A stretch of DNA of 36,634 bases, taken from positions 1 through 36,634 of the forward strand of contig PHDQ01000004.1 of NCBI GenBank assembly GCA_002841025.1. Reading direction: 5' to 3'. Shown here one piece after another: positions 10,731-12,530 of this stretch. Made by a program: the position numbers and the translations under genes. This DNA is from Bacteroidetes bacterium HGW-Bacteroidetes-13. GTDB taxonomy: Bacteria > Bacteroidota > Bacteroidia > Flavobacteriales > Flavobacteriaceae. The notes under the pieces are model-generated. The model did no database searches and was not told where the DNA came from. It worked only from the letters and a program-made list of their open reading frames with translations. Position 1 is the stretch's first letter; each line of letters begins with the position of its first letter.

Positions 10731-10759
10731 ACATTTTCAAATTAACACATTTTCAAATT
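10731..10759. repeat. Direct repeat ACATTTTCAAATT x2 spanning the rlmB stop codon, 16-bp offset
   Basis: acattttcaaatt at 10731-10743 and 10747-10759. Confidence 0.9.
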
Positions 10760-11494
10760 GATTCTTTGTCTAACTACTTCATACAAAATAGCTCCGCAAG
10801 CAACCGATACGTTCAGCGATGCGATGTTCCCTGTGATGGGAAGCGAAGCTTTTTCGTCTGCTAATTTTAAGATAGATTCCGAAACACCTTTGTCTTCCGC
10901 GCCCATGATGATAGCCAAGGATTCGGTCAGGTTGAGGTCGTAAATCTTTTGATTTGTTTTTTCGGTGGCGGCGATTATTTTTATATCTGAACTTTGCAAG
11001 TAAAAGACGGCGTCTTTCAGATGATCTACTTTACAGACGGGTATAGAATACAACGCACCTGCCGAAGTTTTGATGGCATCTGCATTGACGGGTGCACTGC
11101 CGTTTTTTGGAATGATGATGCCGTCTGCACCCACACATGCTGCCGTTCGGGCAATGGCACCGAAGTTGCGCACATCGGTCACGCCGTCGAGGAGCAGGAG
11201 CAGAGCGGGTGTTGCTTTTTCAGCAACTTGTTCGAGCAGTTTCTCGATGGTAATATAAGATATTTCGGATACGACCGCTACTGCACCTTGGTGGTTTCGG
11301 TCGCCGAGTTTGTAGAGTTTTTCTTCCGGCACATAGGAAACGGATACACTTTTGCGGTTTGCCAAGTTTGTCAACTCTTTGTAGAGTTCACTTTGAAGCC
11401 CTTTTTTAAGGTATATTTTTTCTATTTCTTTACCGGCGTTGAGTCCTTCCATGATGGCCCGAATGCCGTAGATGGTTTGTGTTTCTTTTTGCAT
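10742..11494 (-). CDS. rlmB: TrmH/SpoU family 23S rRNA (guanosine-2'-O)-methyltransferase RlmB
   Basis: IYGIRAIMEGLNAGKEIEKIYLKKG, LDGVTDVRNFGAIARTAACVGADGIIIPK, MGAEDKGVS, LNVSVACGAILYEVVRQR. Start ATG at 11494. Confidence 0.95.
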   Translation of the reverse strand: MQKETQTIYGIRAIMEGLNAGKEIEKIYLKKGLQSELYKELTNLANRKSVSVSYVPEEKLYKLGDRNHQGAVAVVSEISYITIEKLLEQVAEKATPALLLLLDGVTDVRNFGAIARTAACVGADGIIIPKNGSAPVNADAIKTSAGALYSIPVCKVDHLKDAVFYLQSSDIKIIAATEKTNQKIYDLNLTESLAIIMGAEDKGVSESILKLADEKASLPITGNIASLNVSVACGAILYEVVRQRINLKMC

Positions 11495-11518
11495 GGGGCA
11501 AAGATAAGGAATAAAAAA
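11467..11518. repeat. 52-bp perfect direct repeat, copy 1 (start of functional rlmB)
   Basis: cgtagatggtttgtgtttctttttgcatggggcaaagataaggaataaaaaa, identical to 12457-12508 (offset 990 bp). Confidence 0.98.
11499..11506 (-). promoter_or_regulatory. -7 box TATCTTTG 4 nt upstream of the rlmB ATG
   Basis: Minus strand reads TATCTTTG CCCC ATG; no clear -33 element. The same box occurs in copy 2 at 12489-12496. Confidence 0.5.
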
Positions 11519-11553
11519 GGCTGCCATAAGACGGACTGTGCATAAAATAAAAA

Positions 11554-11573
11554 AACAAGATGTTTCATCTGTT
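11554..11573 (-). terminator. Terminator-like hairpin between tnpA and rlmB, possibly bidirectional
   Basis: aacaagatg-ttt-catctgtt (one bulge), with a T-run on the minus strand (TTTTTTT) and T6 on the plus strand. Confidence 0.55.
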
Positions 11574-11649
11574 CTTTTTTATTTGCCAACCGACGGGTAG
11601 GTTTTTTAATGGTCAGTTGCCTGCCTTTTCGGCGTTTAGATGTTTCATT

Positions 11650-11663
11650 GTCCCTTTAGGGAC
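11650..11663. repeat. REP-like hairpin GTCCC-TTTA-GGGAC, left of tnpA
   Basis: gtccctttagggac; inverted counterpart cgtccctaacgggacg at 12294-12309. Confidence 0.8.
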
Positions 11664-11756
11664 GGCATATCGGTAGAAAATCATACAAACATGAACCGGC
11701 GTGCCGTCAGGTACGCTATATGAAGCTCGGAGAAATGCGTGTTAATGCGCAACATA

Positions 11757-12221
11757 TCACATTTCGATTGGTTTAAAAATGTACAGTTGATTAAATTTGA
11801 TCTCATGTGTTTTCAAAAGCTCAAGATATTCTTCCCCGAACGTTTTTGTTTTATGATGATTTTCCTGATTCTGAATGTATGTAATGACTCTGGGCAATTG
11901 TGATTTAGAATAAGAAAATGCGCCATAACCTGCCTGCCAGGAAAATTTTCCTTTTGTGAATCCTTTCTGATTTATCCATTTCGACGAATCTTGTTTGACC
12001 TGTTTTATTAAATCAGATAGAGCTTGTACAGGGCTCATCCCAAATAAAAGGTGAATATGATCCGGCATGCCATTAATTTGTAGCATTTTGTGCCCGTTAT
12101 GCTGAATTATTCCGGTAATGTATTTATACAAATCATCTTTCCATTTGGGTTGGATAAGGCTCTGCCGGTTCTGGACTGCAAAAATGGTTTGAATATGTAT
12201 TTGTGTATAGGTGTTGGCCAT
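11757..12221 (-). CDS. tnpA: IS200/IS605-like or REP-associated Y1 transposase
   Basis: MANTYTQIHIQTIFAVQNRQ, HUH motif PDHIHLLF, catalytic-tyrosine region VITYIQNQENHHKTKTFGEEYLELL; full length (154 aa), no frameshift seen. Confidence 0.92.
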   Translation of the reverse strand: MANTYTQIHIQTIFAVQNRQSLIQPKWKDDLYKYITGIIQHNGHKMLQINGMPDHIHLLFGMSPVQALSDLIKQVKQDSSKWINQKGFTKGKFSWQAGYGAFSYSKSQLPRVITYIQNQENHHKTKTFGEEYLELLKTHEIKFNQLYIFKPIEM

Positions 12222-12293
12222 AATAATCTTTATAGATGTTGTACCTGACGGCACAACGGGAGATTTTGGTTTTCTTCGGTTCTACCCATATAC

Positions 12294-12309
12294 CGTCCCT
12301 AACGGGACG
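12294..12309. repeat. REP-like hairpin CGTCCC-TAAC-GGGACG, right of tnpA
   Basis: Perfect 6-bp stem; inverse orientation to the left hairpin within the 29-bp inverted repeat. Confidence 0.8.
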
Positions 12310-12456
12310 AACCGCGCCAATCACTATTGAGTTCTTTCGCACAGTTTTCATGGAAGATAAAGATAATAAATACCAACAATTAATGTGAATTAAATTAAAG
12401 GTGAATTTCTTCCCTGTTCGAGCCTTGAATTCACTATCTACCCGTGGAAAAAAGGG

Positions 12457-12508
12457 CGTAGATGGTTTGTGTTTCTTTTTGCATGGGGCAAAGATAAGGA
12501 ATAAAAAA
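12457..12508. repeat. 52-bp perfect direct repeat, copy 2 (orphan rlmB 5' end)
   Basis: Identical to 11467-11518. On the minus strand it encodes MQKETQTIY, then diverges to ALFSTGR and a stop. Confidence 0.98.
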
Positions 12509-12530
12509 ACCACCCGGCTAATGGGTGGTT
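12502..12530 (-). terminator. Intrinsic terminator of the SusC-SusD-lipoprotein operon
   Basis: aaccaccc-ggctaat-gggtggtt, 8-bp stem followed on the minus strand by TTTTTTTATT. Confidence 0.8.

Follow-up and report, generated by a model that had tools for sequence, protein, structure and literature searches.

Insertion of a REP-bounded Y1 transposase element at rlmB with a 52-bp target duplication, and long direct repeats at related loci in Bacteroidota

Among the described Y1 (HUH) transposases, no terminal inverted repeats and no target duplication have been reported for the IS200/IS605 group (subclass 1.1) (PMC7290912), while members of subclass 1.2 have been defined by the signature motifs DH[IV]H, WQ and Y---Q--HH, do not share the properties of insertion sequences and are generally without typical terminal secondary structures, this being a general and not an absolute trait (Quentin et al. 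2018, PMC6006769). It has furthermore been stated that tnpA_REP genes show no evidence of mobility (PMC8266576), and there is precedent for tandem REPIN units and clusters that include flanking DNA (PMC3116915).

The element described here shares features with each of these systems. Like IS200/IS605 it possesses a Y1 transposase with an HUH motif and hairpin ends, but it differs from that group in that its insertion carries a 52-bp duplication relative to the empty site. Judged by the published motifs, its transposase appears to match subclass 1.2, which it also resembles in size (~150 aa), low copy number (two here) and occurrence in Bacteroidetes, although it is set apart by clear terminal palindromes and by a pair of filled and empty sites; these palindromes represent a small addition to the published description of the subclass. 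As in RAYT/tnpA_REP systems, tnpA has palindromes on either side, which are found again elsewhere in the genome, with tnpA-less pairs nearby, the difference being an insertion with an empty site both at this locus and at a second one (L382). In contrast to class-2 RAYTs, the transposase scores only 34.9 bits against the REP-associated tyrosine transposase model NF047646, below its cut-off of 80. The initial annotation of this DNA had missed that the transposase is not of the canonical IS200 type and that similar long duplications flank other such elements.

Architecture of the rlmB locus

The window, meaning the whole 36.6-kb stretch of DNA that was analysed, is a single contig (C174) of a 2.54-Mb genome assembly (G000) consisting of 358 contigs and 82% complete. 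Sequence comparison within the window showed that positions 11467-11518 recur at 12457-12508, exact over 52 nt at a spacing of 990 bp, so that the two copies are separated by 938 bp; the chance expectation of an exact 52-mer repeat in a window of this size is ~3e-23. On the minus strand the order is a lipoprotein-like gene, its terminator hairpin, copy 2, the 938-bp insert, copy 1 and the remaining rlmB (Table 1). On this strand copy 1 comprises the end of a T-run, the -7 box TATCTTTG, an ATG and nine rlmB codons, and copy 2 reads MQKETQTIYALFSTGR up to a stop codon. The identity of RlmB was confirmed by Pfam and NCBIfam profile searches. The initial annotation had already reported this exact duplication, with copy 1 as the start of a functional rlmB and copy 2 as a truncated version beside the upstream terminator, and the sequence comparison, the RlmB profiles with the intact frame, and the position of the hairpin all agree with it. 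The new junction has also created an in-frame ATG at 11525-11527, 12 codons ahead of the rlmB start, which makes a longer product possible (MAAFFIPYLCP-MQKETQ).

Table 1. Positions of the features at the rlmB locus of the window
Feature	Position	Strand	Basis
rlmB, reading frame intact	10742..11494	-	TIGR00186 2e-59; 88% identical in G001
Copy 1: end of the rlmB promoter, ATG and nine codons, continuous with remaining rlmB	11467..11518	-	Sequence comparison
Segment D, 131 bp, non-element: genus-wide leader repeat ending AATAAAAAAGAACAGATGAAA, then first codons of another gene (MKHLVFLFYAQSVLWQP), interrupted at copy 1	11519..11649	-	Genus comparison
Outer REP-like palindrome GTCCCTAAAGGGAC, opposite element end	11650..11663	-	Sequence; folding
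Inner palindrome GTACCTGACGGCAC, downstream of tnpA	11701..11714	-	Sequence
tnpA, 154-aa Y1 transposase, open and apparently intact	11757..12221	-	Pfam Y1_Tnp 1.6e-27; NCBIfam IS200/IS605 transposase; invariant motif columns
Inner palindrome TGTGCCGTCAGGTACA, upstream of tnpA	12240..12255	-	Sequence; folding
Outer REP-like palindrome GTCCCGTTAGGGAC, element end on tnpA 5' side	12295..12308	-	Inverted arms 11650-11678 / 12280-12308; ssDNA hairpin fold
Segment B, 148 bp, non-element: promoter-like TATCTTTA, then ATGAAAACTGTGCG	12309..12456	-	Genome searches
Copy 2: dead second rlmB start, with the end of the promoter, ATG and nine codons, adjoining the terminator	12457..12508	-	Sequence comparison
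Terminator hairpin of upstream lipoprotein-like gene, the ancestral rlmB neighbour	12510..12529	-	Sequence; insert-free terminator-rlmB junction in G001

An assembly artefact has to be considered in a fragmented metagenome bin of 358 contigs and 82% completeness, the more so as exact repeats near the usual k-mer sizes warrant suspicion. However, both junctions lie within one 36.6-kb contig, and the same arrangement is found in other genomes with some flanking copies that have diverged (80-95%), which cannot be an overlap artefact, making this the least probable of all the explanations weighed here.

Measured from REP to REP, the core of the element spans 659 bp (11650-12308). Its TnpA carries the motifs DHIH, WQ and YIQNQENHH, and DH[IV]H, WQ and Y---Q--HH are invariant across eight aligned proteins including that of the window. 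Palindromes of the type GTCCC..GGGAC and GTGCC..GGTAC flank tnpA, with their order inverted between the two sides; folding predicts two single-stranded hairpins at the tnpA 5' end, while the 3' end folds better than shuffled sequences but into a different predicted structure. The assembled genome holds two tnpA copies, and the second of these, on contig C152, has similar palindromes and is without the 52 bp, for which a whole-assembly search with the unit revealed no further occurrence in the assembled genome. The 52 bp is not part of the element. Contig C152 (L002, ~375-535) also contains a tnpA-less pair of the same palindromes, which adjoins the second tnpA copy (73% identical) and resembles a miniature non-autonomous copy.

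The initial annotation had treated the spacer as one transposase unit of about 938 bp, which holds for its length but not for its nature, as 131 bp (D) and 148 bp (B) of other DNA lie outside the core. Both segments resemble the starts of other genes, and B is perhaps such a start. The leader repeat seen in D is a dispersed repeat of ~90 bp whose end coincides with the start codon in many genes of the genus (L068-L082; in G000, G001 and G002) and which forms tandem arrays in G002; an integron-like reading of these 90-bp repeats was dropped, as they proved to be leaders that end on start codons. This composite insert, in which B and D accompany the REP core, is the chief argument for repair-associated capture, in which 938 bp of another locus, the element among them, would have been joined at a staggered break in rlmB or copied there by template-switching replication, with the 52 bp filled in or copied twice and no catalytic part for the transposase. 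The lack of inverted repeats at the ends of the insert is also in its favour. On the other hand, neither the assembled 82% of G000 nor two congeners yielded a donor for the 938 bp or for B and D, and the missing 938-bp donor speaks against capture.

Empty site, direction and estimated age of the insertion

In two genomes of the same genus, G001 (RlmB 88% identical) and G002 (64%), the locus consists of the lipoprotein-like gene, a terminator region and rlmB; the rlmB start occurs once, and at this locus neither congener has tnpA or the second copy. When the flanks of the window were joined with one 52-bp copy, the 938-bp insert and the other copy being removed, the result aligned to G001 and G002 without a large gap, indicating that the insert is derived, and the second copy with it. 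The insertion point lies inside codon 10 of rlmB and 52 bp of the target were duplicated, the downstream copy rebuilding the promoter end, start codon and reading frame and the upstream copy being a dead gene start. The ancestral terminator-rlmB junction and the arrival of a ~938-bp unit with a duplication that rebuilt the gene start, both proposed in the initial annotation, are thereby borne out, and neither of the two relatives lacking tnpA carries both copies. Its suggestion of a recent event also fits, as the copies differ at 0/52 sites and G001 differs at 15/52; assuming that the dead copy drifts freely and that no conversion took place, the insertion would belong to roughly the most recent sixth of the period since G001 split off, which is an estimate and not a date. 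Support is good for the duplication but not for its mechanism.

Two explanations bear directly on this arrangement. An excised circle containing the insert and one 52-bp copy could have recombined by a single crossover with the 52 bp at the empty rlmB, which would yield exactly the observed arrangement and the exact identity of the copies, and tandem units of element plus flank do occur in relatives (L107, L113, L121, L153), in line with the REPIN clusters that include flanks (PMC3116915). However, such a circle presupposes that insert and rlmB start had been linked in some earlier molecule, which only moves the question back, and 52 bp is short for homologous recombination; we regard this route as improbable. 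Still less credit can be given to a two-step history in which an unrelated event first doubled the rlmB start and the element inserted between the copies afterwards. Elements do occur between tandem copies of DUF6090 gene starts, but here the insert directly abuts both copies, the duplication without insert is absent in relatives, and two rare events at one place would have had to leave the copies still identical.

Direct repeats at related loci and a second empty site

The window prompted a search of 260 distinct loci of related (subclass-1.2-like) tnpA and 86 usable class-2 RAYT loci, in which direct repeats around tnpA were retained from 35 bp and 78% identity upwards if no third or inverted copy was nearby, these filters and thresholds having been chosen during the work and not beforehand. 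Controls were 383 pseudo-element positions in the same contigs and a DDE-transposase set, which with only 12 usable loci was too small to be informative. Qualifying repeats were found at 10/260 subclass-1.2-like and 3/86 class-2 loci versus 1/383 control positions, the single control match being a DUF6090 paralogue. After removal of REP and DUF6090 cases the tally was 9/346 versus 0/383 (p ~0.001, window included), the filter having contributed eight further loci; more than 95% of loci are without such a repeat, which at these may have decayed or may never have been present.

The nine loci have two-copy direct repeats of 41-246 bp, mostly consisting of neighbouring gene ends. Besides the rlmB start in the window, the repeat corresponds to the hemB start (L316), the stretch from the hsdM end up to the hsdS start (L230), the ftsY end (L144) and the paaK end (L163, where the repeat includes a REP and the locus runs into the contig end); that of L295 is intergenic and may hold an unknown repeat. 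The other three are class-2 RAYT loci, namely L382 with an 88-bp repeat, L387 with two tandem tnpA copies and L427, which is counted by the filter alone. The gene names hemB, ftsY, paaK-like and hsdS were checked, and hsdM was assigned on the basis of its sequence and its position ahead of hsdS. Ends of neighbouring genes were matched across tnpA in 28/483 tests versus 2/483 with shuffled partners, some of the 28 being REP arrays or paralogues, and the protein-level test also showed the end of a META-domain gene duplicated ahead of a topoisomerase gene (L259).

Most flanking repeats at related loci proved to be REP arrays or tandem element copies (e.g. L039, L041, L044, L049, L059, L113, L125) and were excluded from the host duplications; at L113 (Aquiflexum) the whole tnpA element with its REPs is present in nearly identical direct tandem copies. 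L054 and L315 were rejected as paralogous neighbours, and DUF6090 loci were left out of the main tally because these genes occur as tandem paralogues. DUF6090 gene starts flank 19/260 loci, in 10 of them on both sides, and REP-bounded tnpA elements often lie between a cut-off DUF6090 start and a further one (L002, L103, L105, L107-L109, L120-L122, L133 and others), the upstream fragment ending shortly past the GEI motif.

A second pair of filled and empty sites was obtained at L382, where the repeat (95%) covers the last part of a 461-aa gene and the intergenic DNA as far as the next gene. The joined flanks of L382 align over 686 bp, along their full length, with locus L441 from the same genus, which has one copy of the repeat, no insert and no transposase at the site. 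The L382 insert starts and finishes with the element's own inverted REPs, and since it is the element itself, it favours an element-driven process over chance capture. This exact fit, together with long target repeats that recur around this class of elements and hardly at control positions, counts against repair-associated capture, which is a real rival for the window given its extra DNA, yet in our judgement rather unlikely.

Proposed route of insertion and its meaning

The best explanation, which we favour with some reserve, is that a REP-bounded Y1 element matching subclass 1.2 entered rlmB together with some flanking DNA and duplicated 52 bp. The insertion, the duplication and their direction are shown by the comparisons above; the joining step is inferred. 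Single-stranded element DNA would be joined at a replication fork, where tens of target bases may be held twice on one strand, as an extended 3' end and as an unremoved 5' flap of the same stretch, and joining between the 3' end and the flap would leave a long direct repeat. Against this explanation stand the 131 + 148 bp by which the insert in the window overruns the REPs, as such DNA would not be carried along if a transposase cut at its own ends, the many loci without a repeat and the wide range of repeat lengths, and neither a donor nor a transposition intermediate was observed. Long target repeats probably recur with REP-bounded Y1 elements in Bacteroidota, whose loci bear them much more often than control positions, although only a few per cent of the loci support this view. 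Only tentatively, and with more doubt than confidence, do we extend this to a pathway, distinct from IS200/IS605 peel-and-paste, by which REP-bounded Y1 transposases (subclass 1.2 and class-2 RAYTs) would regularly make target duplications of ~40-90 bp.

For the study of how RAYT-type genes and REP palindromes spread, pairs of filled and empty sites with long target repeats provide individual insertion events, real insert boundaries and a testable pathway. Insertion into a gene end can be harmless when the duplicated stretch rebuilds the gene, and such insertions would survive because the repeat restores it. If true, the long-duplication pathway would offer a direct handle on the spread of these genes and REPs.
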